A stretch of DNA of 64,000 nt from Nannochloropsis oceanica. Lineage: Eukaryota; Sar; Eustigmatophyceae; Eustigmatales; Monodopsidaceae. The notes below the pieces were generated by a model. That model did no database searches and had not been told where the DNA came from. It saw only the letters and a program-made list of their open reading frames with translations. The number at the start of each line of letters is the position of its first letter. The first letter of the stretch is position 1. Shown in pieces: positions 6,983 to 55,269 of this stretch. The stretch lies in NCBI GenBank assembly GCA_004519485.1, contig CP038115.1, positions 744,001 through 808,000 on the forward strand, given 5' to 3'. The translations under genes were made by a program, and so were the position numbers.

Positions 6983-8395
6983 ATGGTATCTTCCCACCTC
7001 TTTGTCGTCATCCTTGCTTTATGCTCCTCCGTCCGCTCCACTACCGCTGTCATCTCTTCCTTCGTCGGAACCCTTGACAACGACCCTGCTGCAAGGGATC
7101 GCCACCTCCTTCCCACAGTGAACGCCAGTAATGCAGCTGCTACCCTCCCCCGTGGTCTTGAAAACGAGGACATAGCCATATGCTTTGACTTGGACGTACC
7201 ATTGCAATGGACATCTGAGGAAGGGGAGCTGCGCGTGAACGGCTTTCCTTTCCATCTCAAGGGAATCTCATGTATGTCAATACTTTCATTTCATTTTTCA
7301 ACCCACTCTCCTATCATTCATTTTTACACATTCAATCAATCTATTGCAGATTTTGGCTTCGAGACGGGCACCATGTATCCAGGTGGCCTGTCCGGGAAAA
7401 CCACCGTGCGTGACGTCTTCACCCTGCTTCGGGCCGAGGGCTTTAATGCTTTGCGTATCCCTTTTTCAGCCGAGATAGCCCTGAATCCAGACCGTATCCT
7501 CCGCGTCCAAGATCCCGATTTAGATAATCTCGGACATATGGCACGCTTGGCCAAATTTGTCGACGTGGCGGCTGAATTTGACCTCCTTGTGATGCCCGAT
7601 ATGCACCGCCTGTACGCGAATGGTGGGATTGATGCGCTCTGGTACGACAACAGGACACCCTACTCCCGTCTTTTGGAAGCCTGGACAAACATCATGGGGG
7701 CGATAGAGGACAAATGGAACTTCGCGTTTATCGATTTGAAGAACGAGCCTCATGGGCAAGCCACGTGGGGAAATAGCAACCGGGCGACAGACTGGAACAA
7801 GGCGGCGGAAGAGCTCTCCAAGGCTTTATTTGGTCGTTTTCCGCAATGGCATGGGCTTGCTTTCGTAGGAGGTATCGAGTGGGGTAACGCTATTCAAGGA
7901 ATGCGCAACTTCCCTATTGACTTGGGTCGCCCTGATTGGACGCGCCGCGTCGTCTACTCCCCTCATGTATACGGACCCGATGTGTACGACCGACCTTACT
8001 TTAATTTTGGTTTTCCGGACAACTTACCAGGCATCTGGGAGTCGAGCTTTGGCTTTGTAGAATCCCTCTACGGGCAAAACGCGGTGGTTATTGGCGAATG
8101 GGGCGGTAAATATGGACGAGGTCCCAGTGGGAGACGAGACAAGACGTGGGCGGACACTTTGGCTAAGTGGGTCGTAAACCGTTGCTTGGAGGATAACTTC
8201 TACTGGTGTGTCAATCCAGACAGCAGCGACACGGGGGGTATTTTGGAAGATGACTGGACCACGCCGGTAAAGCCCAAGCTCGAACTCCTTCGCCGCGTCC
8301 AGCCCCATCCGTCGCTTTTGTACGGGACATCGCAGGGTAATGTTGTGTGCTTGTCTGAAGGAAAGTATGCGAACCCCAACTGCCGTCGCAAGTAA
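6983..8395 (+). CDS. Secreted glycoside hydrolase family 5 (endoglucanase-like), 2 exons
   Basis: Predicted retaining beta-glycosidase of family GH5, probably a cellulase or related glucanase. Exons 6983-7271 and 7350-8395; the 78-bp intron is a multiple of three, so it reads open. Spliced length is 444 aa. A signal peptide (MVSSHLFVVILALCSSV) indicates secretion. Splicing restores the family block KGISYFGFETG. GH5 motifs: LRIPFS near 135, MPDMHRL, the acid/base in LKNEPHG (Glu229), SPHVYGPDVY with the usual His and Tyr, and the nucleophile in VIGEWGG (Glu346), followed by the substrate-binding Trp in FYWCVNP. All catalytic residues are present. The next gene (9122-10604, minus) is a paralogue in tail-to-tail orientation. 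Exact substrate cannot be read from sequence. Confidence 0.9.
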   Translation: MVSSHLFVVILALCSSVRSTTAVISSFVGTLDNDPAARDRHLLPTVNASNAAATLPRGLENEDIAICFDLDVPLQWTSEEGELRVNGFPFHLKGISCMSILSFHFSTHSPIIHFYTFNQSIADFGFETGTMYPGGLSGKTTVRDVFTLLRAEGFNALRIPFSAEIALNPDRILRVQDPDLDNLGHMARLAKFVDVAAEFDLLVMPDMHRLYANGGIDALWYDNRTPYSRLLEAWTNIMGAIEDKWNFAFIDLKNEPHGQATWGNSNRATDWNKAAEELSKALFGRFPQWHGLAFVGGIEWGNAIQGMRNFPIDLGRPDWTRRVVYSPHVYGPDVYDRPYFNFGFPDNLPGIWESSFGFVESLYGQNAVVIGEWGGKYGRGPSGRRDKTWADTLAKWVVNRCLEDNFYWCVNPDSSDTGGILEDDWTTPVKPKLELLRRVQPHPSLLYGTSQGNVVCLSEGKYANPNCRRK

Positions 8396-9121: not shown

Positions 9122-10604
9122 TTACAAATTGCAGATGGGATTCGCCGAGCTGCCAGGCATAAAAGACCACCCGCCCTCTGGCTCGGCGTTGCGGAGTAAG
9201 ACCGATGGGCGGGGTTGTATCCGGGCCAGCAACGCCAATTTGGCTTCGTTAGGGGTCCGCCAATCGGCCGATAGCACACCGCCTGTATCTTTGGCATTAG
9301 GATTAAGGGCCCAGTAGATAGTGTCGTCTAAGCACCGGTCGATAAAGTAATCGGCAACGGCCTTGTGCCACATGGCATCACCCTGCTGCGCATCATCGAG
9401 GGAACCGCCCCACTTGCCAACCACCACGGCTCGGCCAGTCGCCTCCTCTACGCCACCAAAGAGGTCGTCATAAGCCGCATACATCTGATCGGGGAAAGAT
9501 GTGGTATATACATATCCCATCGACGGGGAGACGGAAGGCCCCATGAGCAGCACTTCGTATACCACACGCTTTGTACTCGCCGGGGTAAACAGGTCCAGCG
9601 ACTGGGTCAAGGCACCGCGCAGGTCCGTCGCATATTGGGCTGCAAATTCCCCGCCCTCAATACCTTGTATTAACCACAAGCCATGGTACTGAGGGTATTC
9701 CTGAATGAGGATGGCTGCCGTGTCTTGAGCTGCCAAGTTCCAGTCCGTGCTGGGGTTGTTTTCGGCCCACGTTGCGCGGCCCCGGCCTGGGCGGTCGAGC
9801 AGGTCCACACCCAACAGGTTCCAACGGTCGCCATATCGAGTCAAGAGCCGGCGCCAGGCGTTTTGGAAGTTTTGGTATGAAACTTTGGAGCCATACCACA
9901 GCCCCTGGTCTTGGGAGCCGAAGAGTGTGGTAGCGTCGTCGTTGTAGAGGGCAAGTACCACTAAAATGCCCCGCGCTGCTGCCCGCTCAAAGATGGTGTC
10001 GAGTAGCTTTCCCACGTTCAGTCCGTGCAACGAGGAATCACCGGATATAGCTGAGCTCGGAACGCGCAGGGCCAAATCACACGCTATGGTATATGCAACA
10101 GGAAGGCGAAGCACGTTGAACTTGTTGAGGGCCAAGAAGTCCAATACGTCGTCAAGGGTCGTAGCCCACAAACCGTGAGGAGCCCGCGTGTCGGCCGTAT
10201 CCATGCCAAACCTTGGAGAAGAAAAAGAAAAGGCAAGAAAAGGAGAAACAGAGAGGAGAGAGAGTCAGGAGTTATGTCCTTCTCTTAGAGGACAAAGCCC
10301 CCAAGGGGTAAGAGGCGTGCCCGGCCTCTGGCCAAGAAAATCGAAGGTCGCATACTTTTACTCACCACGTCAGTCCCTTCATGTGAAAGTGATGACGACC
10401 ATTAAGTAGGATAGCACCTTGTTCCGTGGTCCACGATAAGCCACGCAGAAGGAGACAGGCGGTGATGGGCGTGGCGAGGGAGGCGAAATCGCTTTTGCCG
10501 CCGCGCAGCATACTCCGGGCCGGCGCCCGGGACGGACTCTGGGCGGCGACCAGGGCGAGGAGCATCTGAAGGAGAGTAACAACAATAACAAAGTATACCA
10601 CCAT
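9122..10604 (-). CDS. GH5-family pseudoenzyme (both catalytic Glu replaced), 2 exons
   Basis: Paralogue of the neighbouring GH5 enzyme. Exons 10604-10366 and 10211-9122; 442 aa with no internal stop. Start chosen at the Met of a good signal peptide (MVVYFVIVVTLLQMLLALVAAQ); an in-frame upstream ATG at 10808 would bury that peptide. Splicing yields KGLTWFGMDT, matching KGISYFGFET of the active copy. Overall fold markers persist (WNLLGVDLL, STDWNLAA, YPQYHGLWLIQGIE, YWALNPNAKDTGG). The acid/base position reads LLDRPGR (Arg220 in place of Glu), the nucleophile position reads VVGKWGG (Lys346 in place of Glu), and the SPHVYG block is replaced by EVLLMG. The frame is intact, so this is likely an expressed secreted non-catalytic protein, for example a glucan-binding or regulatory one, rather than a dead gene. 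That role is inference. Confidence 0.85.
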
Positions 10605-13900: not shown

Positions 13901-16177
13901 GAGCAGGCGGAGAGAGGGGATGAGAGTAAGCTTCACTTGATCATCCTGGACGAGGTACGCCCCCCCCCTCCCTCCCTCCCGCCCTCCCCTCTCTCCTTCC
14001 TTCTTCTCTCAATCCCTCATCCCCCCCCCACCTGCAGGTCGATTCGATCCTCTCCAAACGCAGCGGCTCCCCCTCCCAAGGCTACCGAGATACGGTGGTG
14101 AATCAGCTTCTGAGCACCATGGACGGGGTCAACGCCCTCCACAATGTCCTCGTCGTCGGTGCGTGCCCCTCCCTCCCTCCCTCCTTTGCCTCGACGCGAG
14201 TCCTAGGCCTGCTGCAGTTGCGCTCTTTCTGACCTTCTCGCACCATCTCCCTCCCCTCCCTCCCTCCTTCTCTCCGCCCCTCCCTCCAGGCATGACCAAT
14301 CGTAAGGACCTCTTGGATGAGGCTGTTCTCCGCCCAGGTCGTCTCGAGGTCCATGTCGAGGTAGGGCCCGCAGCCCTCCCTCCCTCCTTCCCTCCCTCCC
14401 TCCCTTCCTCTTGTAACTATTTTTTGATAATGTTTCTGTCGCTTTCCACGTTGCCTTTCTCCGTAGGCAAGAGCAGCGACGAAATCTCGAAGGAGCGACC
14501 GCACACACCTATCTTTGCTCACATTTCTCCCTCCCTCCGTCCGTCCTTTCTCCCCCCCTTCGTGCAGGTGAGCATGCCCAGCCCTGATGGTCGGCTGCAG
14601 ATCCTGAACATCCACACGGCCTCCATGCGCGCCAGTCGCCGCCTCGCCCCCGGCCTCCAAGATCGCTTTCCGGAGATTGTCGAGTACGCCCTCCCTCCTT
14701 CCCTTCCTCCCTCCCTCTCTCCCTCCCTCCCTCCCTTTCGCCTCTCCACTCGTTATTTGTATCTTGCATCACGCACTGAACTCATCTTTGCCCTCCCCCT
14801 CTCCTGCCCTTCCTTCCTCCCTCCCTCCCTCCCTTGCATAGGCGCATGGAGGGCTACTCAGGCGCTGACGTGGAGGGTGTCGTCAAGAGCGCCGCCTCGC
14901 ATGCCCTCGAACGGGCCCTCCTTCGGTACGTCCTTCCCTCCTCCTTACCCCCCTCCTCTCTCCCCCTTCGCCCGCTCAGTAGGCTAATCGTCCTGTCCGC
15001 ACTTCCATCCCTCACTTCTTCCTTTCCTTTTCTCCCTTCCCCCTCCAGCACGGGCCCCTCGGTCGTCTCTTGGGACGACTTCGAGACTGCACTCGAGGAG
15101 GGTAAGGACATGACTACCCTCCCTCCCTCCCTCCCTCCCTTCCCTCTCTTCCTTCCTCTCATCTTCCCTCCCTTCCCACTTTCACTTCCCACAGTCACAC
15201 CCACGAGCACTCCCTCCTCCTCCTCCTCCTCCTCCTCCTCCTCCTCCTCCTCCTATCCCCCCCCTCCTCCATGGGGCGTCCTCGACCCCACACTCACCCA
15301 CGCCTCCGTCCGCCGCCGCCTCCGTTCCCTCCTGCCTTCCCTCTCTTCCACCCTTCCTCTCTCCTCCTCTTCTCCTTCCCTCCCTTTCCTCCTTCTCCTC
15401 CACGGACCCCGCGGATGTGGCAAGACGACATTGCTTGCCTGGCTCGCCCACGAGATGGCGACCCTCCCTCCCTCCCTCCCTTCCTCTCGTTCTGCCTCGG
15501 CAGCCTCCCGCCTTCCCCTTTTCCTTTCCATCCCTCCCGGCACGGCCGACCCCGCACAACGTGTGAGGGAAGCGCTCGATCAAATAGAGAAGGAGGAGGA
15601 GGAGGGAGGGGGAGGCAGAGAAGGAGGGAAGGAGGGAGGGATGAATACGCCTGGGCCCCGCTTGCTTTTTCTGGACGGCCTCGAGAGTGAGGAGGGCTGC
15701 CTGGAGGTTTTGACTTCCCTTGCTTCTTTCTCTCACTCTTCTTCCTCCTCCTCCTCCTCCTCCTCCTCCTCCTCCTCCTCCTCCTTTTCCCCCTCCTCCA
15801 CCTCGTCGTCCAGCTTGTCCGTTCCTTCCACCCGAAGCCAGTTCGTGGCAATCGCCGCTCTCTGTACCACCGACACCGCCTTCTCCTCCTCTTCCTTCTC
15901 CCCTCCCTCCTCTGTGCCCTCCTCCTCCCTTTTGGGGTGTGCACACGCTCACTTCGGCTTGCCCTGGCTGACCGACCTGGAAACGGAGATTCTGCCCACA
16001 CTGCGAGAAATGGTAGGAGGGCGAGGGGAAGGGAGGGCGGGCGGGAGGAAGGGAGGGAGAGTGACAATGAGGGGATTGGAAGGGGTGGCAGTGATGGCAA
16101 AAGCGCTGAAGGGGGGAGGGATGGAAGGAGCGGAGGAGTGGACGATGGAAGAGTTGTTGGAGAATGTGTGGGTCTGA
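10976..16177 (+). CDS. NSF-type AAA+ ATPase with ASAF plastid-type leader, 13 exons
   Basis: NSF-family ATPases disassemble SNARE complexes. Exons: 10976-11259, 11383-11458, 11628-11846, 12077-13074, 13229-13308, 13654-13782, 13875-13954, 14038-14158, 14290-14360, 14568-14683, 14842-14925, 15049-15101, 15195-16177; sum 3294 nt (1097 aa), all phases consistent. D1 is plainly [23 protein letters not shown], Walker A GPPGCGKT (553-560), [20 protein letters not shown], Walker B LIILDEVD (Asp621, Glu622), [33 protein letters not shown]2 is very divergent but keeps Walker A GPRGCGKT (near 841) and a Walker-B-like LLFLDGLE. The leader [21 protein letters not shown] fits a heterokont signal peptide with ASA|F cleavage. 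The middle (about 200-520) is acidic low complexity, and the usual NSF N-domain is not clear. D1 is certain; joining exons 1-3 to it rests on phase and proximity. Confidence 0.75.
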
Positions 16178-17694: not shown

Positions 17695-20600
17695 TCACAC
17701 GCTCCCACTACGCTCCTCCTTTACACCTATGTTTCCCCCCGCTCCGGCTCCCTCCATCGCTTCCTCTATCCCTCCTTCATCCAGCTGCTGAAGCCGCTGG
17801 TGGGCCTTGGCTGCCCGGGCGCTGACTTCCTTCGTCACAATTTCGAAAAACTGCAGGTTGGGGGTAGGGTGGGAGGAAGGGAAGCAGGGAAGGAGGAGAG
17901 TGAGAAGAGACAATGAAGCGACAAAGGGAAGGGGGGAGGAAGACAATAAGGGCACATGAGGTGATAGAAGAGGGAAAGGTTGGGATGCTCGACTGCAAGT
18001 GAGGGAGAGAGGGTGTTACGAGGGGAAGGAAATAGGGAGGGAGGGAGGCAAGACGACGTACCTCCTTGAGAGACAGGATCTTGTTCTCGGAGTGGATGAG
18101 AGCCCGGGGGAAGCCGGCGCGACGCAACAAGACCGAGGCCACCACACGAGAGAACCGGCCGTTACCTGGAGGAGGAAAAGAGGAGGAGGGAAGGGCAGAC
18201 AGAGAAAAAGTGAGTGTGCACTGGGGAGGAAAGTTGAAGCCTTCCTCTCAAGAGCCAGAGCACTCCAAAACAAAGATTAAGGGAGGAAAGGGAGGGGCGA
18301 AAAGGACCAAGAGACAGAGCTGGCGCAGAGCCAACCAGCTCCCCTGACAGCCCCTCTGCTACCGTAAAGCCCAGCCTCCACCCCCCCCACCCCCCATCCC
18401 CCAGCTTAACCCTAATCCCCCTACTCAACCCTACGCCTCAGCCTGCCTGACGAAGGGGGGGCGGGCTACAGAGAGGCGACAATAATTCCAATTCTCTGTT
18501 AAACCAAACAAGGCCAGCACCACCACAGGAACCCCCCTCCCCCCGCCCCCCTCCTCCACCACCTTCCACACGCACCGTCGTGGAAAGGATGCAAGAATTC
18601 CAGTACGGACTTGTAGAGGACGAATATGGCCGTGGCCGGCCGCCCTTCTGCCCACAAATGGTCCACGGATCGGTGCAGCTGAGCCCAGGCCTTGGGGAGC
18701 TCGTGTGGGTGCAAAAAAGTGCGGTACAGGTAGTGCGTCACCACGCCCTGAGGAGGAGGAGGAGGCGAAGGAGAAGGAGAGATAAAGGGAGGGAGGGAGG
18801 GTTGGTGAGTGCGGGTGTGGAAAAATGCGGCACGGTAGTGCGCCTACACACCCGGAGGAGGAAGAGGAGGAGGGAGGGCAAGAGGGGTGAATGTAAGAGC
18901 ATCGAACCTGGCTTGCACCTGAAAACAACCCTACAGCCTCCCTCCCTCTCTCGCTCCCTCTTGCTCATGTGCTTACCAGTGCAGCCCCTTGCCGCATGGC
19001 TCCCGATCCGGCCAGCTTAGTGGCCAAGCACTCGGCGTAGGCTCGGTCGTACCAGGGGAAGGCCCCGCCTAAAGGAGGGAGAGGGGAGGGGGAGAGAGGG
19101 AGGAAGATCAGTAGGTGGAGGAATGACAGAGGAGAGACAAGTGAAGGGCACGCTACAAGACATGTGAGGGAGGGAGGGAGGGAGGGAGGGAGGGAGGGGA
19201 GGAGCACAAGGGGGGAGCGCAGGAGAGTGGGAGGGCGACCGAGGCAGAGCCTACCTTGAGGCGCCGCCAGAGAGGAGAGGAGGTCGGGCAGGGTGTGGTC
19301 ATACTTGTGCTTCCCGATCAAGTCGAACACGTCCCGGTGGGAGAAGGACCAGGGCTGGAGCGAGGACGCGAGGGAGGACGAGGGGGAGGACGGGGAGGTG
19401 CCGGAGGAGGGGGTGGCGCCCACCTCCTTGCTCCCGTGGACGCGGGTGCTGATGGAAGATGGTTGGCTGCTGGTGCTGCTGCTGCCCTTCATCTTCTTCT
19501 CCACGTCCTCCGACCGGGCTTCCAGCAGCTGGGGGATAAGTGGGGGAGGGAGGGGAAGAGGGAGGATGATGGGGAAGGGAAGGGGAGGATGAAAGGCGAC
19601 GGAGGGGGCGCACCGAAAGGGAGCAAGCAGGGGAGGAAGGGAGGGGAGGAGGAAGGAAGGGACGGGGACAACGTACCTGCACGGCTCCCTGGGCGTGCTT
19701 GAGCTCCAGCTCGAGGGCCTGCCCCTGGTCCGTCCATGCCCGCAGGAGGGACAACCACTGCGTATACACGGGCGAGTCCACCTGCGGCAAGGTGAAGGGA
19801 GGAAGGGAGGGAGGGCATGGTGGTGAGTTATTCCAAAGGGGCAAGTGCCAGAGGAAAAAGGAGGAAGGGAAAGGGGAAGGGAAGGAGGAAGAGAAGGAGG
19901 AAGGGCAGGGACAAAAACGAAGGGACCCCCATCCCCGTAAAGCATCGCCTGATGTCCCCTCCACCTCTCTCGCTCTCCCCTCTCCCTTCTGCCCTCTGCC
20001 CTCCTCCTCCATTCCACCTGCCACCACGTCCTACCTGAGCTCGCAGGTCCGGCGGCCGGAAGCCCAGTCGCCGGAGGTCGCTCGCGCACTCGGCATTGAG
20101 GGCGAAGAGCGGCTTGGAGGGCGGCATGGGCAGCAGCACGTCCACCATGTAGAAGACCGCATCTACCAGCTGTTGCACCCACGGGCAGCGCTGGGGGAGG
20201 CAGGGTAGGTGGGAGGAATGAGGGGGGAAAGGCCGAGAGGGGGCATGAGAGCAGTGGAGGGGAGGAAGGGGGGAGGAGGGGCAAGAGGGAGGGAGGGGGG
20301 GAGAGAGGGAGGGAGGGGAGGCACGTACTTGGCAGACGTCGGCGAGAACGATGAAACGGCGCTGGGCAAGAACTGCCTGAAGGGGGCATCGAGAGAGGGA
20401 GAGGTAGGGAGAGGAAACATGTTCAGTGGATACAGGAGCACCGCCAGGAGGTGGAGAAATCATTGAATCTTGTCGGTGGTCTGGCCTCTCATTACTCCCT
20501 GCCCTTCCTCCCTCCCTCCCTTCCTCCTCCCGTCCCTCCCTCCCTTCCTCCTCCGTACCTGCAGCACGGCGCACATGGACCGGTTGGGGTTGTAGAAATT

Positions 20601-23600
20601 GTACGATTCTTGCGAATACTAGGCCCAGGGAGGGAGGGAGGGAGGGAGGGAGGGAGGGGGGAGTGGGTGAGATGGTGTGGTATCAGATGAAAGTGATGGA
20701 ATGCGACTCAAGAGGAAGAGAGGGAGGGAGGGAGGGAGGGAAGCTTACCACTGCAGCAATCCACTCCTTGATGCGTTGCTTGAGCCAGCGGGACTGGAGG
20801 AGGAGCTGGATGCGGGCCGCGTCTGTGGAGGGAGACGATAACCAGGCGTTGAGGTCCTGGGGAGGGAGGGAGGGAGGGAGGGAGGGAGGGAGGGAGGATG
20901 AGTACTGGATAAAAAAGGCCCACAAGAAGTTGCTTGCTGAGTAGAAGATCAAGGAGGATGGAAGAAATGGAGGGAGGGAGGGAGGGAGGGAGGGAGGGAG
21001 GGAGGGAGGGAGGGAGGGAGGACGTACCTTTTCTGTGCCGGAGACGATCTGATGCACTTCCTCCCCCAGACGGGTCGAGAGCTTGGGAGGCTCGGGGCTC
21101 TTGAAGAGGAGAAGAAAGGCGCCAAGGCGACGCCCATTCAGGAGAACGGGGAGCACGGCCAGGTGCTGAGGGAGGGAGGGAGGGAAGGTGAGTTTTCGAT
21201 GGCAGGTTGATAGAGAGAGAGAGACACGGGAATCGGCAGGCAGGGAGGGAGGGGGGGAGGGCGCACCTTGTTTTGGGTGTAGGCCATGAGGGGGGAGAGA
21301 AAGAGGTCGTTGGGATCCCGGCCTGCCGCCTCGGCCACCACCAGGGGCTTGTTGTCCTACATGGAGGGAGGGAGGGGGGGATGGGGGGGGAGGAGGAAGG
21401 TTACCGTGAGTGGGGAAGAGGGAGGGGAAGAAGGAGGGAGGAAAGGCAGGAGGGAGGGGCATACCTTGAAGCTTTCGTCCAGGAACCAGGTGCGGTCGTC
21501 GAGGACGAGGTGGGACATGACGGCGTCTGCCTCTTCCTCGTCCTTAGTGGAGGGGGAGCCGCCCGCCCCACCCTCCTCCTCTTCCTCCGACGCGCTGGCC
21601 CAAGAACGGATGGAGGAGGAAGAGGACCTGAACGACAGGGAATAAGGGAGGGAGGGAGGAAAGGAGGGAGGAAGGGAGAAAATTTTGGTGAGTGAGGAGC
21701 CTGTTTCCAGGCAGCGAGGAACAAGGAGGAACCGAGGGGGCACGACAAACACCGAGGCCTGAGGATGTGGGTGATGAGGAGGGGGTATACGAGGGCACGA
21801 CAAACACTGAGGCCTGAAGAGGTGGGTGATAAAGAGGGGGGGGATATGGGGAAAAAGGACGCACCGGTTGTCGGTAACGAGGCGAGGCCGGACGGAGCAG
21901 CAGAGGAGGAGGGAGTTGTGGTGGGTGGAGTGGAAGAAGCGGACGAAGGAGGGCCGGGGGGAGACGGCGGCCCAAAAGAGGAGGGAGGTGGCCAGCTCGA
22001 GGCGGAGGAAATACTGGTCGCGGGGCTCAATCACCACCTGGGGAAGAAGGGAGGGAGGGAGGGAGGGAGGGAGGGAGGGAGGGCGTCACGACTGATGCGA
22101 GGGACGGATGGACACGTCGAAACCAGCCGCCAAGGACGGGAGGCGGTGCGCCATAACATCTCTCCCTCCCTCCCTCCCTCCCTCCCTCCCTCCCTCCCTC
22201 TTTCCCGACGTGCACCGCACCTGCTGGGAGTCGATCTCGAGGAAGAGGCAGGCGCCGTGGTCCCGCAGCATGTCCGCGATCTCGTCGTTGCCTAGACGCA
22301 CGGCCTCGGCCAGGGGCGTGGTGCCCCACCGGTTCCTCTTGTTCACGTCCGCCTTAAGGTCGTGGACGAGGGCTGGAGGGAGGGGCCGAGGGAGGGAGGG
22401 ACCGAGAGGAAGGGAGGGAGGGAGGGAGGGAGGGTGAGCTATGGCGGAGGCTTGGGTCTAGGTATACACTCTAGTTGGAGGGGGCCACCATGAGGGAGGG
22501 TGAAGGAGAGAAAGGGGAGGAGAAAGGGAAGGGAATGGAGGGGAGGGAAAAGAGGACGAGGCCCACCTCGTGCGGCGGCAGCGTGGCTGTAGCGGATGGC
22601 GCAGTGCAGAGGGGTGTTGAGCTCTGCATCCAGGCTGTCCACCGGCCACTCCCTGCCGTACCTGCCGGGGGGGGGGGCGGAGGAGGAGGAAGGGAGGGCG
22701 GAGGGAGAGGGGAAGGGAGGGAGGGGGGGGAGACGGAGGGAAGAAGCGAGGGGCGGGTGAGAAAAAAAAGGCGAGGATGAGAAGTAGGAAGGGAGACAGG
22801 AGAGAAGGGAGGGAGGGAGGATTGTCGTTGAAAATGCTGCAGCTGGATGCAGCTCGTCCTCGTCCCTCTTACCTGAGGACGGCCTCGAGGGAGCCGCACT
22901 CGGCGGCGGCGTGCAGGGGGGTCTTGGGCGGGGGCATTCCCTCCTCGTCCATGCCCGTGTCTGACGAGGGCGAGGAAGGGAGGGAGGGAGGGACCGAAGG
23001 AAGGAGGGAGGGTGGGAGGGAACGTAAGTGGTGACCTCCACCTCGATCGAGACGAGTGTGCCATGCCGGCCGCTTCCTCCTCTCCCGCCCTCCCTCCCTC
23101 CCTCCCTCCCTCCCATCGCCCCCGTACCTCCGTCCTCGACCTCCTCCTCCTTCCCCGTCTGCATCTTGCTCCTGCTCCGGGCCACAAGCATCTCGAAGGC
23201 CTTCAGGTGTCCGCTCATGAGGGCCACCTCCGCCGCCGTGTGCCCCTCTTCGTCCCGGACGGGGAGCTCGCCTGGGGAGGGAGGGAGGGAGGGAGGGGAG
23301 AGAGGGAGGGAGGGCGGGAAGGAAGGTCAGTCGGTGCCAGAGAGACGAGGCGGTCGACTATCTGGAGGGGGAAAGAAAGGAGACAAGACAGACAGGGGGA
23401 ACCAGAAAGAAGCAAAAAGAGGGAGGGGGGGAGAGAGGGCGGGAAGGAGGGAGGGGCAGGGCGTACCTCCTAGACCGGCGGCGAGCAGCATCCGGAGCAT
23501 GGCCATGTCCCCCTTCTTGGCCGCCTTGTGTAGCAAGCAGTAGCCCTAGAGGGAGGGAGAGAGGGCGGGGGGGAGGGAGGGGGGGAGGGAAAGAGGGGCG

Positions 23601-25684
23601 AGCTGACAGATGAGCAAGCGGAAGGGGTGATGGATGGATCCAAGTCCATCGACGGGGAGGGAGGGAGGGACGGAGGGAGGGAGGGAAGGACGGAGGGACG
23701 TACCTCGCCCTTGATGTGCGTGCCGCGAAGGAGGAGCTCCTTGAGGCCCCGGACGTCGCCGGCTTCCACCACGCGCTCCATCGTGTCCTTGCCGAGCTCC
23801 AGGCCTGAGGCAGGGAGATCGAGGGGGCAAGAGGGAGGGAGTGAGGGAGGAAGGGAGGGAAGGGAAAAGGTTGAACCATGCGTTGATGAGAATAAATCCA
23901 CCGATTCGTCCAATAATTCCGTTCGCACTTTCCCTCTCTCCCTCCCTCCCTTCCTCCCTCCCTTCCTCCCTCCCTACCTCGCAGGTGGTCCCTGACAAGG
24001 GCATGGCCCCAGTATTCCGCCTCGTCCGCCGGCGTGTGCCCGTGGATGTCCCCCGCGCCCACGTCCGCGCCCCGGGCTATCAGGGTCTGGAGGGAGGGGA
24101 AGAGGGAGCACAGGGAAGGAGGGAGGGAGGGAGGGAGGGAGGGAGGGAGGGAAGGCAGTGTGGGTGCGTGGGAAGGAATTCGATAGTACGCATGCTTCAC
24201 AAGAAAGAGAGGGAGAGAGGGAGGGAGGGAGGGGGGGAGGGAGGGGGGGAGGGGAGGAGCGTACCTTGACCACCTCCATGTCTCCCCACCGGGCCGCGTA
24301 GTGAAGGGGCGTGCGCCCGTCCGTATCCTTCTCGTGCACTAAGACGTCCACGGTGCTCTTGCTCCGACGCAGGGCGGCCTTTTTGGTCGCTGGAGGAAGG
24401 AGGGGGAGGGCCGGGGGGAAGGGGGGGGGAGGGGAAGGAGGGGCTGAGCAGACCCCACTTACAAGAGAGCCTCCGAGTGCACCGAGTCGTCACCGGTCCA
24501 CTCAGCCGCCATGTGCCAACTCTCCCCCCCCCTCTGCCTCCACCCCTCCCTCCTCACCTCCCGCCGCGGCGCCGTTGCCCTCCTGCGGCTGCTGCTTCTT
24601 CTTCTCGGCAGCGGCGGCAGCAGCGGCCTCCTCCTTGTCCGTCTTGGTCAGGATCCAATTCACGAGCCACCGCTACAACGAGAGAGAGGGAGGGAGGGAG
24701 GGAGGGAGGGAGGGAAGTCAGGACATGGACGGCGACAATGACAAGAACGACGAGGGGAGGAAGAGAGGAAGCGGAGGGCGGCCATATCGTGGAAAGGGAG
24801 GAAGCGGAGGGCGGCCATATCGTGGAAAGGGAGGAAGCGGAGGGCGAGGAAGGCAAGTGGGTGGGGAGGTGGTCAGAAAAAGGAAAGAGGACAGCAGGGG
24901 GAAAAAAGAGGACGGGCGAAAAGAAGCGAGTAAGGAAAGAAGGGCGGGAGGGCGGGAGGGAAGGAGGGCGTACCTGTTGATTCTTGACGGCGTGCAGGAG
25001 GCGCTTATCCTTGCTCTCTTCGAGGCGGGGCAACGACTGAGCCCGTCGCACGAGGGAGGACTTGAGGTCCGGCGTGGTCAGCTCCTCCACCAGCTCCTGT
25101 GTGTTTGCAAGATGGAAAGGAAGAGCGGCGAGGGAAGGAGAGATAAAAGGGGGAAAGGGAGGGAGGGGACACTGGTGAGGAATAGCACGAGCTTGGAAGG
25201 TAGCCAGCCTCATCAAAACCAATAACCGAAGACGTGCACCCTCCACTCTCACAAGTCGTCCTGCTCCCCTCCGTCCTCCCCCCCTCCCTCCCTCTCCCTC
25301 TCTTCCTCTCCAACGCACCTGCGACAAGCCCAAGGGCATGCCTGTCAGGGAAAACGACGGGTGATGTCCTTGCCCCAGTGCTGGTTCTCCCCCTCGCCCT
25401 CCCCTGCCTCCTCCCGCGGCCCCTGCTGGGCGCATGGCTACGGTGTGGGCACCGCTGATAGTCACTCCTCGCTTCGTCTTCGACGGCTTGGGAAAAATGG
25501 AGGACGACGAGGTAGAGGAACGAAGGAGGGAGTGGGCGCCGTCGTCGGCAGTAGCCTTTCCTTTCCCCCCCGCTGCCGCCTCTTGCTGGAAGCCTGATAA
25601 GTCCAGCTCATCGTCCTCCTCCACATCGCTGTAGCTCCCACTCAGGTCGTCTTCCTCTTCCTCCTCCTCTTGCTGTCCATTCAT
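17695..25684 (-). CDS. Ankyrin-repeat / Fic-domain protein, 25 exons
   Basis: Fic domains transfer AMP or related groups from nucleotides to target proteins. Reading the minus strand, 25 exons were joined, each with GT..AG borders and matching phase: 25684-25319, 25096-24974, 24672-24558, 24389-24265, 24086-23978, 23804-23704, 23545-23467, 23271-23128, 22960-22873, 22661-22567, 22372-22221, 22037-21865, 21627-21465, 21356-21267, 21165-21028, 20856-20749, 20618-20559, 20376-20329, 20190-20035, 19781-19677, 19528-19255, 19068-18977, 18747-18576, 18165-18062, 17850-17695. Sum 3336 nt, 1111 aa. Acidic/Ser-rich N-terminus; ankyrin repeats about 200-500 (GRTPLHYAARWGDMEVVK, KTPLHAAAECGSLEAVL, NTPLHCAIRYSHAAAA, WGTTPLAEAVRLGND); a possible GAF-like segment about 590-690; Fic domain at the C-terminus with the complete active motif HPFHDGNGRFSR (1021-1032), split by the last-but-one intron. 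No clear inhibitory (S/T)xxxE(G/N) motif was found. The start could lie further upstream, since an acceptor-like site sits at about 25732. Confidence 0.85.
20619..21027 (-). repeat. Example of (CCCT)n-rich introns on the coding strand
   Basis: The introns around the exons at 20856-20749 and 20618-20559 consist largely of CCCT units on the transcribed gene's sense strand (GGGA on plus), placed just before the acceptor. The same organisation recurs in nearly every intron of the Ank-Fic gene and, on the plus strand, in the NSF-like gene (for example 13480-13650). Confidence 0.85.
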
Positions 25685-28288
25685 GCCCGAGCCGGAGGAA
25701 AGGCTCTGCAGGTTTTCACTGAAGCTGTGTGGGTGTGGGTAAGAGAGGGGAGGGCGGGAGGGCGGCAGATGAGAAGATGAGGAAAGAGAACTGCCGATCC
25801 TCAATTGCCACAAAAAGATGTGCCTTTAGGCTGGCCCTAAAGACTGCCCGCTTTGTCAGAGGGCGCAAGGGGTAAAGGCATGAGCCGAGGGCAAGGGACA
25901 TACAGGGGAAGGGGACAGTGGTAGGTAGGGGGCTTTTAGCTTCAAGACAAGGGGGACTTGGCCTGACCGAGTGGCTTCAACCGTGGCATGCGAGCCAGGC
26001 AGCCTCCGGGGGCAAAACGAGCGTATTTATACGAGACTGATTAAGCCTCCATGTCTGTGAGAAGCCGTCGTGTCCTCATACACGACAGAACGTGCAGACT
26101 ATGCGACAGGTCAACACGGCGTGAGAAGAGGGCTTTGCCGAGCACTTGTCTCCTTCATTCCTTCCCGTCTGCCCACAACCCTTTTCTTCTGTCCGCTGCA
26201 TCCCTGACCCACCCTTCCTTTCTCCTGAAACGAACCTGTGTTGCGCATAGGGGGCAGTCGTTGGAGGCTTCATCGTCCCGGCGTTTTGGGCGCTGTTTGT
26301 GCGAGTGCTTCACCTGTCGTCTCGCCTTCCCTATGGTGGTTCAGTGGGATGTGGGTGGGTGTGTATGTGCATGTGAGATGACAGTCTGCCATTTTTAGTC
26401 AGGTGAGGAGGAGAATGTCAGGGTAGGGAGGGTGACATGAATCAACAGGCTACGAAGACCAGCTCGGCACCAATTGCTCGGCACCCTCAATTCGGTTGGC
26501 AACGTCAGAGGAACGAGGAAACACCTCCTTGGGGATTGTGGTGAGGCCAAGCATGCTCCAGGTGTGGACTCGGTGATAATGATTGGGCCACCGAATGACC
26601 TCGACATACAGAGTACACATGATTTAGAAGGCACCAGGTGGTTGAAGCCTGCCTCCCAGAATTGCCCCGTTTCGAAAAAAGAGGTGGAAGTGAAGCCCCC
26701 GGAGATGCGGGAGCGGAGAGGTCGGTGGTGGTGTCTGGAGACATCACACACCTTGAGGTATGGCAACTCGTGACAGGAAAGTGCCGTACTGTGGCTCACT
26801 TCCACGCCTTCCTTTACGGTCAGATCTGCATAGAATGATGTCCTTTACGCCTTCGATGCCGCCTTGCTGGCTTTATGTGAGGTTCTTTTGGGTGTGGTAA
26901 AATTTTCGAAAAGAAAAGGACAAATTGGTCGTCTGAGATATGTCGCCATCTGCGCTCAAATTTCTTTTAAACTTTATTAATCTCTTTTTTAATGATTGAA
27001 TTCAATGATTCCTTTCGTGAGATCGATGCGGGTCATGGCTGAACCTTCACCGTCTCTTGAAATGTGGTGTAGGTCGGTCGAATGCGTGTGTGATCCACAT
27101 CGCCCACTATAACCCGTCAGGTGGGGAGGGAGTCGGTCAAAGCTTTTGCAGAATTGTCTTTCTTGCTCCGGACAGGTCTACACAGATGGCCCGGATCTGG
27201 GCCTCAATCAGTTACTTTGCTGGAAATGTGGAAATGTTGCTGTGGTCTTATAGGCCTTCCGATGCCTAAAGCAGAAGAGCGTGAGTCCAAACCCGACAAA
27301 AAGAGGTGCCCGCTCGTACACGTCACTTGAAGGTTCGAGTTTCCCCCCATCTCTTTATTGGCCAAGGAGAGGTTAGGAAAGGTTTTTTTCGACAAAACAC
27401 ACTTGCGAGGGAGAAATTAGCTCGGCAATGGACATGATGGATGAATAGGACAATGGAAATGCTGGAGATGATGGGTGCCAATGGTTGATGCGGATATGGG
27501 CGCTGAACTATGGCCCCAAGAGCATGAATGGGCCAATGGGCCACCCGTATCCTGTTTTCTGGGCTTGAGCAAAAGCATTCGGGCTGTTTGAAATTGTTTC
27601 ATGTGTGTATTTGAGGCGAAAATGGACCCGCTGTGTTAGTTTGTTGTCTTGTGTGGATCTGAATCGCGAAAGATGTCCCTCGAGAGGTTGATGGACCCGA
27701 CGTACGCACAGAATAAAAGAGGACGCAGAAGCGCATCGGCATGAGAGTGCTGCTTTTTGGCTCACTCTTTTTTCTTTAACGTGCTCAAATGTTTCAGTTT
27801 TACTTTCATCTTTCCCCATCGAAGTCTCTCGAATCGATGAAAAGAAAATACATTACAATTCCTTTCCTTCTGCTGCCACCGCTGTTATTGCTCCTCGCTG
27901 CTGGTGCTCATCAATACCGCTTTACTTGCCGAGACCATAATATCACTTCACTCTTGCTTGCTTGTGCGCTGACTGTAAGTGCCATAAGCATCATCAGTTT
28001 TCCTGTTCTCGCATTCGAATCCCCTGCGTCTTTCCCCTCATTCAATTACCCTCCTCCAGCGTGTTTCCGCTGTTATTCCTTTTCAAGTCCATCTCGCGCT
28101 CCCTCCCATCCTCCCCATTGCTATCCCTCCATAAGCCCATCTCGCGCTTCTTCTTCATCCTTCCTAGCCAGAATCCTCTTCTCTCACTTATGCTTGCAGA
28201 GAAAGAAGAAAACCCATGCACGACAAAAGAAAATCCTCGTCCATCCCCCTCACTGAGCCACCGAGCCGTCAGCCCGTCTTTCTCTATT
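25685..28288. other. Long intergenic region, no gene recognised
   Basis: About 2.6 kb between the 5' end of the Ank-Fic gene and the 3' end of the ZIP-like gene, both on minus. It must contain the Ank-Fic promoter and perhaps a 5' exon, given the acceptor-like site near 25732. A plus-strand frame at 27834-28256 starts with a hydrophobic leader-like stretch but then becomes Ser/Pro-rich and matches no family. No tRNA or other RNA gene was seen. Confidence 0.5.
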
Positions 28289-31495: not shown

Positions 31496-33483
31496 ATGTT
31501 CACCGACACACAGGCCATGCGCGGTCTCAAAGCCTTTCAGAGGAGGGGTGCAGACACAGAGGAGGAGGAGGAGGAGAAGGAGGAGGAGAAGAAGGAGGAG
31601 AAGGAGGAGGACACGTTAGCAGCAGTTGCAACAAAGAAGCGGGGCCCGGGTGACGATAATCAGAGCAACGACCACGACGAGGAGAAGACTGCAAATGAGG
31701 ACACGGGGAGTCCAGCAGGAGCAGGGCTGGAGGAGGGAGAGCTATGCGACGACGATAAAGAAGCGATTCAGACAGCAGTATCTGCAGCAATAGCAGCGGC
31801 TATCGAGGAGTGGGGCGATAGGCAAGGTGAGGAAGAGGAGGAAGAGGGAGAGGGGGAGAAGAAAAAGCGAGAAGATGGAAACGACGGCAAGGAGAGTGCG
31901 CCACTTGTAGCAGCAGGTGGGGAAAATGAGGAGGAGGAGGACGAGGATGTTGAGGCTTCACTTTATCCCCCGGCCCCACCATCCGGCCTGCTTCCTCCGT
32001 TTTGGGCCGCCGCGCAAGACCCCTCTACGAATGCCACCTATTATTTCCACCAACAGACGGGCGTGCGCTCCTGGGAACCGCCACCATTACTTCCTTTGTC
32101 GCCCCCTCACACTTACCCTGGGCAGGCCCCGGCTGCCCCTCCCTCTGCACCACAGCTTCCCCCCGAGCTGGCCAAGCTACACGCGGCGTTAGACAAGGTA
32201 GGTCCAAGGGGAAGAAAAGACGGTAATGCGATGGGGAAGACGGAAGGGAAATTTTAACAGGCTTGACCCGGAATCCTAAGTGATGCTGATCTGAGACAGG
32301 CATCGAGGAAGGAAGGCGTCCCTTCTTTTTCTCCGACTCCCTCATTTGAGCACCTTTTTCATCGCTATTCCGCCTTTTTCCAGCTCATAACAGCATCATT
32401 TTCCCTCCCTTCATTTTGCTATTCAACCTTCCCTACCAGGTGGACAGCACCCTATCAAATGCCGACACGTCCTCGTTTCCCCCTGCTGCCGTTACATCCT
32501 CTGTCCCCCTCTCGCCCTCCGAGGCGGCGGCGGCCGTCTGGGTTGAGCTCGTGGATGAGGGCACGGGGCGGGTGTACTATTACGACAATGTCTCGGGAGC
32601 GACCCGATGGTCCATGCCCCAGGCCTTCCAGGTCTGTGGGCTTGGGAGTGGGCTAGTTTCCTTGCTCTTTCCCTTGTCTGCTTTCATTCTTTATCCGTGC
32701 CTCTTTTTGTCTCTGTCTCTGTATCTACCCAACAAATACTTGTACGAATAGAAGTACCTGAGATTCTCGATCCCTCCCACTTAACCTCCTCCCGCCTACC
32801 TTCCTTTCTCAGGGCGAAAGTAGGACAGCCTGGCCAGAGGGAGGCCTTCACGGAGGCCTTCAGGTACGGCGATCGAATGGAGAAGGATAGAGGGGAAGGG
32901 CGGGAGGGAGGACAGGGTGGTGAGAGGGGAGTTCATTTCGAGGCGTCAAGAGTGTGTATATAGCCACTGCTTTGGGGAAGCAGTATGCGAGAGAGCCCTC
33001 TCGTGAGAGGGCACCACATTGGTGGAATCGGGGGGAAGGGGAGGAGGAGGTATGAAACAAAGTGAGAAGTGAATGGATAGCAGAAGGGCTGAGCAAAATT
33101 TGATTCAACCACTCTCACCCCTGACTGACTTCTTCCCTCTCCCCCTCCCCTCTAGCCTCCTGTCATTTCCGCCTACGACCGCGACGTACGGATTTTGAGC
33201 CACTTCTTCGACCCTTCCACTCTCGCGGCTAACCGGGAGGAGGCCAAGAGGAAGAAGGCGGAGATGTGCACAGGTAGGTGGAAGAGGAGCCACGGATATG
33301 CAGCAAAGGGAAGGGAAGCTAGAAAGGCAGTAGGCGTCTCGTTGACTCACCTATTGACTCGTCTTCTTTTTCCCTCGCTCTCTTTGTCGCCCTCCGTTCG
33401 TAGGCGTTGACTGGCGCCAGGTGAAGGATAAGAAGAAGGCGGAGAAGAAGCGCAGGGGAAACGAATGGTTGTACAAAGGATGA
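31496..33483 (+). CDS. Nuclear WW-domain protein (splicing-factor-like), 5 exons
   Basis: Exons 31496-32197, 32440-32631, 32813-32863, 33156-33273, 33404-33483; sum 1143 nt, 380 aa, all phases match. The N-terminal 160 residues are strongly acidic with Lys/Arg patches, typical of nuclear proteins. Two WW domains are visible: about 165-197 (PPFWAAAQDPSTNATYYFHQ, then GVRSWEPP) and about 265-298 (WVELVDEGTGRVYYYDN, then GATRWSMP), each with two spaced Trp and a Tyr block. The C-terminus has VISAYDRDVRILSHFFDP and then a very basic tail DWRQVKDKKKAEKKRRGNEW. Paired WW domains with a basic tail are common in pre-mRNA splicing factors that bind proline-rich partners, so that role is likely but unproven. 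Exact orthologue not identified. Confidence 0.75.
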
Positions 33484-45882: not shown

Positions 45883-46005
45883 CAGAGATCATCGTGTCAA
45901 ACAGTTCGATTCGTGTTCGAAATTGGGCGTCCGAGTTTGGAAATCGAAATATCTAACTAGTTGGAAGGCATAATTTTTGCCGGGCTATTGCTATTTGCCT
46001 TCATC

Positions 46006-48114
46006 ATGTGGCGGTTAAAATGTGTGGTGGCATATGCTTTTGCATTACACTTCATCGCCTTTCTTCTCATTGGAAAAATGATTCATTTGAAAGAACGAGA
46101 TTTTTTTCTACTAGCAAAATTTCTTGAGAGGACTTATGAGCCCACTTTGGCGGTGGGACAAGAGAAAAAAGTGATCGCTGCCTACTTTCCTCAGTTTCAT
46201 GAATTCGAGGAGAATAACCAATTTTGGGGAAAAGGCTTCACAGATTTCTCCAATGTCGCAAAGATTCACCAAAATCGGTACGGTCAGGCAATTATTAGGC
46301 CTGCCGAACGAATGGGCTTCTATGACTTGATGTCTCCCAGCCAAAGGCGTTTTCAGGGGGAGCTAGCAAGGAAGTATAATATTCATGGATTTGCCATTTA
46401 CCATTACTGGTTCGGCACCAAAGCTATCATGGAAAAGCCACTGGAAATGATGCTCTTAGACGGCTACCCTGACATTCCTTTCTGTCTAACTTGGGCAAAC
46501 GAGCCCTGGATGCGACAGTGGGATAAAAAGGACGGGTCAGAAACTCTCCTCAATCAGACTTACGACCGAGAAACCTGGAAGCCTCATTTTGACTGGCTTT
46601 TACCCTATCTAGAGCATACAAATTATTTAAAATATAAGGGGCTACCAATCATCCTAATTTACAAAGCGGACGATATTCCCGATTTGGAACGAATGATGAT
46701 TCAGTGGAAAACGTGGGCGAGGAATGCAAATTTAATGGGCCTTCACGTGATACAAATCAATGGTGTAGGCTGGAATGGATCGTCTTCTTGGGAATTGCAG
46801 CCAGGAATGGATTCTCTGGTCGAATTCTTCCCAAATTACATTTCGGCGTCCGGCTCTACTATGAACAACCTTGTGAGCACCCAAAAAAAGGCAGACAGTT
46901 ACTTCTACGGCGCTTCCGCTGCCTTTGACAATTCTCCTAGATACTCCGACCCTACCGCTGGTGCTACGATCTATCCATTTCATCCGTCACATTTGTATTT
47001 CTGGCTCCGTCAAAATCTGGCCAGGACGGAGCCTGGTGGATTTGTGTTTTTAAATGCATGGAATGAGTGGGGACAGGGGTCTGCCATTGAGCCAAGCATC
47101 CAATGGGGTAGGCGATGGCTTGAAGCCATCCAAAGAGCTGTCTCCGATGAACAGCGAGGCCATGTATCAAAAACCACGCCTGACGGTTATGTGAGCTCTG
47201 TGCCTTTGGAGGAGAACCCTGGTATGCCTGTAAGCCATAAGGCGACACAAGATAGAGTGTGTATTATCGTCCGCACCTATAAGATCCATGCAACAGGCAT
47301 CTACAACATCCATCAAATGCTCAACACTTTGCTTGCTTTGAACCACAAAAACTGGAGAGCTTTCATCGTCAATACAGATGTAATTCCATTTGAGGATCTG
47401 CATACTATCGTTGACAAATATGAACATAAAGGAAAGATTGAAATTTCTCCCCTAACTGCCACTCGGAGCTTTGCAGATGACCCTAATTCGGCCTATGATA
47501 TGACAGATAGAGCCATAGAGCACCACTGTGGTTCTAGCAAGGAGTTCAAATGGCTACTAGTCACTAACGGAGACAATTGGTACACTCCCGATGCTTTGGA
47601 TTTCCTTCCTAATAACGTCGATCTTGTCTTAATGAATTTTTATTCACGATACTCGATCATGAGTGCAATTGTGTGGACAAATGCCCCGCACGATCAGGCA
47701 TGTTGCGAAAGGCTTCAAAACTATCAATGCATGGTAGCCGATCTCAAAATGGGCCACATTGATCTTGGCGCAGTGATATTTAATTATCAGAGATATCGTA
47801 AAGAGCACATCTCTTTTTCAACATTTAATGAACAGTCCAATACTCGATGTGGTGTAAAAAATGGCGGCTGCCACGATGGCCTCCTGCTCGAGTATTTGAA
47901 ACAAAATGAATGGTCCTATAGTGGTCTTCCTGTTGATGTATGCACTATGTATCACAATTCAAACCCCAAAAGCTGCGAGCTTGTTGGTGGGACATGGTTC
48001 GACACAATGGATCTGAGTGAAATGGGCTGTTACTATGGGAATATACTACCCGTGCCTCTGGAATCCGTGAACTATCAGGCATATATGGCAGCCCATGCAG
48101 CATGCGTGTGTTAA
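46006..48114 (+). CDS. WbsX-family glycosyltransferase fused to a second GT-like domain, intronless
   Basis: 702 aa from the first in-frame ATG at 46006; the frame is open back to a TAG at 45958, but the codons before 46006 contain no ATG. An N-terminal hydrophobic helix (VVAYAFALHFIAFLLIG) suggests a type II membrane anchor in the Golgi/ER. Residues about 50-400 match the WbsX family of bacterial and viral polysaccharide synthesis: VIAAYFPQFHEFEENNQFWG, KGFTDFSNV, YNIHGFAIYHYWF, FCLTWANEPWMRQWD and GGFVFLNAWNEWGQGSAIEP. Residues about 420-680 form a second domain (RVCIIVRTYKIHATGIYNIH, WLLVTNGDNWYTPDALDFLP, NVDLVLMNFYSRYS) that resembles GT-A glycosyltransferases. Absence of introns, unlike the genes at 2.5-35 kb, hints at acquisition from bacteria or a large DNA virus, or retroposition. 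It appears whole. Confidence 0.8.
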   Translation: MWRLKCVVAYAFALHFIAFLLIGKMIHLKERDFFLLAKFLERTYEPTLAVGQEKKVIAAYFPQFHEFEENNQFWGKGFTDFSNVAKIHQNRYGQAIIRPAERMGFYDLMSPSQRRFQGELARKYNIHGFAIYHYWFGTKAIMEKPLEMMLLDGYPDIPFCLTWANEPWMRQWDKKDGSETLLNQTYDRETWKPHFDWLLPYLEHTNYLKYKGLPIILIYKADDIPDLERMMIQWKTWARNANLMGLHVIQINGVGWNGSSSWELQPGMDSLVEFFPNYISASGSTMNNLVSTQKKADSYFYGASAAFDNSPRYSDPTAGATIYPFHPSHLYFWLRQNLARTEPGGFVFLNAWNEWGQGSAIEPSIQWGRRWLEAIQRAVSDEQRGHVSKTTPDGYVSSVPLEENPGMPVSHKATQDRVCIIVRTYKIHATGIYNIHQMLNTLLALNHKNWRAFIVNTDVIPFEDLHTIVDKYEHKGKIEISPLTATRSFADDPNSAYDMTDRAIEHHCGSSKEFKWLLVTNGDNWYTPDALDFLPNNVDLVLMNFYSRYSIMSAIVWTNAPHDQACCERLQNYQCMVADLKMGHIDLGAVIFNYQRYRKEHISFSTFNEQSNTRCGVKNGGCHDGLLLEYLKQNEWSYSGLPVDVCTMYHNSNPKSCELVGGTWFDTMDLSEMGCYYGNILPVPLESVNYQAYMAAHAACVC

Positions 48115-54199: not shown

Positions 54200-55269
54200 C
54201 ACACCTATCTAGTACAACAAATTTGAGCGATGGTGACTTAGTTCTCTACTTTCAAAAGCGTATGTGGGAATGAGTGATAATGATTAGACAGCATATCTCC
54301 CATATATGATGCAAATCCTCAGAGTTGCGATACGCAACTTTGATACCCGGCGGCCGGAAATGACACACTATAACGCGCGATGCCTGCACTTCGTACACAC
54401 ACCTGCACTTTCCACATCAAATTCATACCCTGATTGAAGGAAGATAGATAAATTCAAGGACAACCATTCATCATACATGATCTCACAAAACTTTTTTTTT
54501 TAAAATCAAGGAATTAAAATAAAATAAAATAAAATAAAAATGCTACACACACGGAAAAAGGCTTATTTTTACCCCAACCATGCTCGATGTGTTGCTTGTA
54601 AGTGACTACATATACTTTTGATGTGTTGGCAAACGGAAAACCTACGATAACCTCGCAAGAACGCTGATTCTGAGCGTTTCGACTTCTTGTAAAATTTACA
54701 ATTGAGTGGTACTCTCGAGGGAGCAAGGCTCAAGGAGCATTAAAAAAATGTAGATTTGGCAACAAACATGCACAAAAACATATATTTTTATAGCAAGGGT
54801 ACGATGTTCGAGCAATTGGGTAAATTTGGTCCTAGGTGTGATGAGCTCTGGTCACTGGCGCACGACGACACATGTTGAACAACGCCTTACACGCTGCGAT
54901 GTGCCACCTCAACCAGTCAGACACGTGCAAAATCATGAAAGCCATAGAAAAAGGCGGAGATGTGCAAGAAGCTGGTAGGTGCATATTCTTCACCAGATAC
55001 GCCGTGCCCTGCGTCAAGGGACGGGTAAAAGCATACTTGACTGGCAAATTGAGATCTGGACCTCGCTGAGTTCCTCAGCTTCGAGGGGACTACATTACTG
55101 GTTACGTCGAGGGGACCACATTACTGATTACGTCAGATTGCTCTGTTGTAAACATCGAGGGACTGCATTTATTTGAGTGGGGAAAGGCCGATTAGTTTGT
55201 TGTCGAATTGAAGATACGTGTAGCTACAAGGGGTCAGTTTATATATACACCGGACTAGTCTCCTCATCG
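54200..55269. other. Subtelomeric spacer
   Basis: Upstream region of the STELLO-like gene. Contains an AAAAT microsatellite near 54516-54540 and a 71-codon plus frame near 54870-55067 (CHLNQSDTCKIMKAIEKGGD) of unknown status. Two near-repeats, gaggggactacattactg and gaggggaccacattactg, lie at 55083 and 55109. Confidence 0.5.

Follow-up and report, generated by a model that had tools for sequence, protein, structure and literature searches.

A candidate ankyrin-repeat Fic enzyme encoded by a many-exon gene of the alga Nannochloropsis oceanica

The window analysed here is a stretch of 64,000 nucleotides (nt) of Nannochloropsis oceanica DNA (contig CP038115.1, positions 744,001 to 808,000), and all coordinates below are positions within it. 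On its minus strand, from 25684 to 17695, lies a gene whose joined exons encode ankyrin repeats followed by a Fic domain with a complete catalytic motif. With moderate confidence we read the product, about 1137 residues long, as an intracellular Fic enzyme that would transfer adenosine monophosphate (AMP), select its target through its ankyrin repeats and be controlled without the usual inhibitory glutamate. The original prediction, made from the letters alone, had described an ankyrin-Fic enzyme with a GAF-like segment. Profile searches support its Fic and ankyrin parts, whereas the GAF part is weak.

The joined protein matched the Fic profile PF02661 with 26.1 bits, the cut-off being 24, and the domain taken by itself scored 29.9 bits. 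The match covers residues 975-1039 and thus falls in the region of about residues 850-1060 where a Fic domain had been placed. A second profile was made from class II Fic proteins of prokaryotes and viral contigs (96 of 123, after removal of redundancy); it matched residues 978-1054, which span the flap, the motif and the helix that follows, with 46 bits. Thirty-four PDB sequences were matched at E ≤ 10 and were of the Fic type. The best was 3cuc (9e-7), chains of FICD came second (from ca. 1e-5), and AnkX was matched at 0.02.

The catalytic motif arises at a splice junction. Exon 23 ends in CACGACG and exon 24 starts with GTAACGGCC, and joining them gives HPFHDGNGRFSR at residues 1021-1032, in which every residue of HxFx(D/E)GNGRxxR is present. 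Only one of the 339 combinations of GT and AG sites near the junction 18576/18165 produced HxFx[DE]GNGRxxR in an open frame, which bears out the proposal that this junction completes the motif. When all 9077 GT-AG joins spanning 60-600 nt in the entire Fic gene were tried, one gave the shorter pattern HxFx[DE]GNGR. No Fic match was found in Pfam at E ≤ 10 for exon 23, for exon 24, or for exon 23 read into the intron. Since the joined protein does match, the earlier statement that neither half is recognizable alone was correct. The splitting of the motif by an intron is real but unremarkable. With 24 introns in 3336 nt it is expected by chance in about 22% of cases, and the intron inside the motif is therefore no signal by itself.

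The reading frame of the gene could be confirmed. All 25 exons could be placed as proposed, the 24 introns between them all run from GT to AG, and together the exons form a single open frame of 1111 residues that ends in TGA. Intron lengths range from 101 to 410 nt and are a multiple of three in 9 of the 24 cases. The G+C fraction at the third codon position of the joined frame is 0.83. Many of the introns (e.g. 20857-21027) are strongly pyrimidine-rich with CCCT runs, so that sense and antisense frames read PPSLPPS or GREGG repeats, which lengthens mechanically called open reading frames.

The first exon of the original model, starting at ATG 25684, is probably incomplete since the frame stays open farther upstream (SFSENLQSLSSGSG in frame). 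Candidate splice sites were scored with matrices built from the 24 introns of the gene itself. The acceptor for an exon start at 25724 scored 5.5 (used acceptors 2.0-22.8) and ranked 43rd among 507 AG sites, which is unconvincing by itself. For an upstream exon running from ATG 26273 to 26236 the donor scored 7.9, the best in the right phase (used donors 8.1-13.2; next candidate 3.1). ATG 25684 is thus probably not the true start, and the exon at 26273-26236, which remains a prediction, would add 26 residues. The likely product is predicted to have 1137 residues encoded by 26 exons. The features of the gene are listed below, with residues numbered on the 1111-residue frame.

26236-26273, minus strand: predicted extra first exon, absent from the earlier model; MKPPTTAPYAQH plus 2 nt; best in-phase upstream donor
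25319-25724, minus strand: exon 1 with predicted 5' extension (earlier start ATG 25684); acidic, Ser/Gly-rich N terminus
24974-25096, minus strand: exon 2, residues 123-163, N-terminal region; from splice joining
24558-24672, minus strand: exon 3, residues 164-202, N-terminal region; from splice joining
22221-24389, minus strand: exons 4-11, ankyrin repeats, about residues 215-493; Ank_2 profile, repeat count by eye
24389-24265, 24086-23978, 23804-23704 and 23545-23467, minus strand: exons 4-7; from splice joining
23271-23128, 22960-22873, 22661-22567 and 22372-22221, minus strand: exons 8-11; from splice joining
21028-22037, minus strand: exons 12-15, weakly GAF-like segment, residues 500-687; weak profile similarity at about residues 605-665
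22037-21865, 21627-21465, 21356-21267 and 21165-21028, minus strand: exons 12-15 singly; from splice joining
About residues 557-597, minus strand: acidic/Ser-rich loop within the GAF-like segment
19677-20856, minus strand: exons 16-20, residues 688-846, no Pfam family matched; from splice joining and Pfam
20856-20749, 20618-20559, 20376-20329, 20190-20035 and 19781-19677, minus strand: exons 16-20 singly; from splice joining
19255-19528, minus strand: exon 21, residues 847-938, Ser-rich linker with STRVHG (residues 873-878), tentative class II relic; from spacing and MAFFT, without profile support
18977-19068, minus strand: exon 22, residues 938-968, diverged first part of the Fic region; from alignment placement only
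18576-18747, minus strand: exon 23, residues 969-1026, flap and first half of the Fic motif (HPFHD and the first base of the Gly codon); from joining, Pfam and profile
18062-18165, minus strand: exon 24, residues 1026-1060, second half of the Fic motif (GNGRFSR) and the following part; from joining, Pfam and profile
17695-17850, minus strand: exon 25, residues 1061-1111 and TGA, C-terminal part; from splice joining

In a published N. oceanica assembly genes have a mean of 2.87 exons (PMC6610115). With its 25 exons the present gene is exceptional, which would speak against a transfer from a bacterium in the very recent past.

Several ankyrin repeats had been proposed upstream of the Fic domain, and these are evident: the Pfam families Ank_2 (4.7e-39) and Ank (1.2e-26) were each matched in five stretches of the protein. 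Judged by eye there are about eight repeats, at residues 215-493. The following segment (residues 500-687) is weakly GAF-like. Of the earlier GAF assignment a weak similarity to a GAF profile stands, but GAF was not matched in Pfam at E ≤ 10 anywhere in the protein and no GAF chain occurred among the PDB matches of the segment. The profile was made from 25 sequences of bacterial genomes (25 of 30 loci, the five that were cut off being dropped). About residues 605-665 (60 columns) align in register with the second half of the GAF domain at 6.1 bits, a score reached by none of 500 shuffles, and hhalign gave a GAF probability of 22% as compared to at most 8% in 60 shuffles. The controls, the whole protein with 3.3 bits and the unrelated residues 690-850 with 2.6 bits, were each equalled by one of 500 shuffles. 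As they too beat 499 of the 500, shuffling is a lenient control for this similarity. A search of the alga's own genome with the GAF profile, exon by exon, gave nothing at E ≤ 10. The best PDB match of the segment was a designed helical repeat (0.0083; 0.23 with a longer segment), which we took as chance. No Pfam family was matched by residues 688-846. The protein appears to have no clear transmembrane segment, and its maximum 19-residue hydropathy of 1.59 lies within the GAF-like segment.

The inhibitory helix of Fic proteins resides in an antitoxin in class I and in the N- or C-terminal part of the chain itself in classes II and III, and its glutamate competes with the gamma-phosphate of adenosine triphosphate (ATP) for the second arginine of the motif (PMC3667792). 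This arginine is kept here as R1032. The strict inhibitory motif [ST]xxxE[GN] had no match in the 1111-residue chain, a helix on a partner protein (class I) not being searched for, so that, as far as the strict motif goes, the original remark on the lack of an obvious inhibitory helix is borne out. QQLDEG (residue 1081) and EEAMEG (residue 1089), both near the C terminus, have no Ser/Thr, and STRVHG (residue 873) has no Glu.

Relatives were collected by tblastn. Phage records gave 26 matches at E ≤ 10, the best among those listed at 8e-4 and none covering 80% of the query, and plasmid records gave 353 at E ≤ 1, of which 7 cover 80%. Eight plasmid relatives were examined and all eight carry [ST]xxxE[GN]. 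Three of them (L013, L017 and L019) have no match to the Fic pattern used and were omitted from the alignment; in the five with a recognizable Fic motif the inhibitory motif lies 138-146 residues before the catalytic His. An alignment of these five with the algal protein seeded a wider scan, which gave at least 132 confirmed loci in genome contigs, of which we took the best 80, and at least 65 in viral contigs, of which we took the 65 listed, 145 in total. One locus assigned to Rickettsia typhi (L055) was excluded at this point, and the counts refer to the remaining 144 relatives. Among these listed matches the inhibitory motif occurs 114-153 residues (median 139) ahead of the catalytic His in 123. 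It was not at the expected distance in the other 21; in 11 of these fewer than 110 residues precede the Fic motif, so it could not show there. A query with the single Fic domain yielded no confirmed relative among 67 pattern matches in genome contigs and 19 in viral contigs. Ankyrin-like repeats were found in none of the 144 listed relatives by a crude regular expression, no profile being used.

A search of the alga's own genome with the Fic profile gave no match at E ≤ 0.001, and the gene in the window was missed too because its Fic domain is split over exons. Two candidates were rejected. One (C14) is a weak Fic match of 16.9 bits, whose gene looks like that of a phytanoyl-CoA dioxygenase on inspection by eye, and the other is a Fic pattern match with one mismatch that, also by eye, lies antisense to an apparent DEAH helicase (C29). 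With the whole protein as query, for which the best candidates were scored (41 of 55), 57 matches were obtained. The 25 on the same contig are the exons of the gene itself, and 31 of the 32 elsewhere fall in the ankyrin part (residues 174-497). The remaining one (E 2.5) falls in residues 772-897.

In the mechanism that we favor, the Fic domain would move AMP from ATP to a side-chain hydroxyl on a partner protein. Binding of this partner, and with it specificity, may be the task of the ankyrin repeats. In place of an inhibitory glutamate, control may lie with the ankyrin array, with the weakly GAF-like segment, with a partner protein or with the level of expression. Proteins with HxFx(D/E)GNGRxxR typically adenylylate, AnkX being one that deviates from the motif (PMC3667792). 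Several observations weigh against this reading. The full protein exceeds the PF02661 cut-off by just 2 bits, and the outer Fic helices (about residues 905-975 and beyond residue 1054) are matched by no profile, suggesting that the domain is diverged or shortened. Six NCBIfam models of Fic-type or mobile-element proteins were matched, all far under their cut-offs. We infer substrate binding by the ankyrin repeats, and an intracellular location has to be seen with the hydropathy peak only just below the usual transmembrane threshold of 1.6.

Of the alternatives, a Fic protein of other chemistry, which would transfer uridine monophosphate, phosphate or phosphocholine or would chiefly remove AMP from its targets, is unlikely, though less so than the others. 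Fic proteins such as AnkX, the phosphocholine transferase of Legionella, have the same fold (PMC3667792), and the region ahead of the motif is diverged in the algal protein. AnkX also combines Fic and ankyrin repeats in one chain, in an order that is reversed relative to the ankyrin-then-Fic order found here, as the original prediction had pointed out. In the algal protein GNGR and the second arginine are kept, unlike in AnkX with its deviating HxFxDANGRxxV (PMC3667792). The Fic domain of AnkX contains an insert and is accompanied by a CMP-binding (cytidine monophosphate-binding) domain (PMC4454073). The AnkX equivalog model gave 12 bits where the cut-off is 1400, and the PDB match was the poor one given above. 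The strict inhibitory glutamate motif is absent from the algal protein, which disfavors a chiefly de-AMPylating enzyme. De-AMPylation by FICD requires the inhibitory glutamate.

A second alternative starts from STRVHG, which would be a former [ST]xxxEG helix of a class II Fic protein in which the glutamate was replaced and self-inhibition lost. The hexapeptide (residues 873-878) lies 148 residues before the catalytic His, within the range of 114-153 seen in the 123 listed relatives, and MAFFT aligned it with the inhibitory motif of the five bacterial relatives. However, the stretch is Ser-rich, and the pattern was picked once the stretch had been noticed; when the linker was shuffled, a similar one turned up at such a distance in 2.1% or 6.6% of cases, depending on the strictness of the pattern. 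The class II profile of 96 proteins falls short of STRVHG, and hmmalign left it unaligned. The relic is therefore tentative, a lead and not a result, and as an explanation of the protein we regard it as doubtful. Just as doubtful is an elaboration in which the glutamate brake was given up, with STRVHG as its relic, and an AMPylase in the cytosol or nucleus of the alga would be under ligand control, switched by the ankyrin repeats and a GAF-like sensor. A Fic scaffold without catalytic activity, serving for partner binding only, is very improbable, for although the parts of the Fic fold on either side of the motif are unmatched by profiles, the motif residues are all intact, which is unexpected once catalysis is lost.

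The favored AMP-transferring enzyme resembles FICD (HYPE), which is likewise eukaryotic and combines a C-terminal Fic domain, full motif included, with a scaffold of repeats ahead of it. FICD inhibits itself in the manner of class II (PMC3667792) and carries a transmembrane helix and TPR repeats (PMC2686095). In contrast, the algal protein has ankyrin repeats, no clear transmembrane segment and no strict inhibitory motif, and TPR was not matched in Pfam. With the bacterial class II enzymes of the SoFic type it shares the motif and the flap region, as reflected in the profile score and in the bacterial-type 3cuc as closest PDB sequence, but not the inhibitory motif that most listed relatives carry. 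The protein is neither FICD nor AnkX, but a variant of a known Fic kind. A paper of 2009 placed the Fic proteins of eukaryotes in metazoa and a small number of fungi (PMC2686095). In 2015 four major eukaryotic groups were reported, which do not cluster together and were believed to stem from several transfers (PMC4454073). An algal ankyrin-Fic protein was not found described in the titles or the beginnings of abstracts of open-licence PMC papers.

Other genes were recognized in the window. The frame at 14834-16174 (plus strand) has AAA ATPase matches (AAA_lid_3 9.6e-7, AAA 3.4e-4) and adjoins the Fic gene in convergent orientation on the opposite strand. Two adjacent frames on opposite strands, 6983-8395 (plus) and 9122-10204 (minus), belong to glycoside hydrolase family 5 (cellulase; PF00150 1.2e-27 and 1e-11, respectively). 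Long frames at 45961-48114 (plus) and 51929-54202 (minus) match WbsX-type (2.3e-79) and STELLO-type (5.7e-23) glycosyltransferases, and an acidic frame at 31496-32257 (plus) has a WW domain (1.2e-8).

AMPylation by an enzyme of the eukaryote's own is best known from FICD, in the endoplasmic reticulum of animals. A Fic enzyme in an alga, equipped with an ankyrin scaffold of its own and lacking the standard brake, would extend AMPylation to another branch of the eukaryotes, in a host for which genetic tools exist. Such an unbraked enzyme would also raise the question of how its activity is kept in check.

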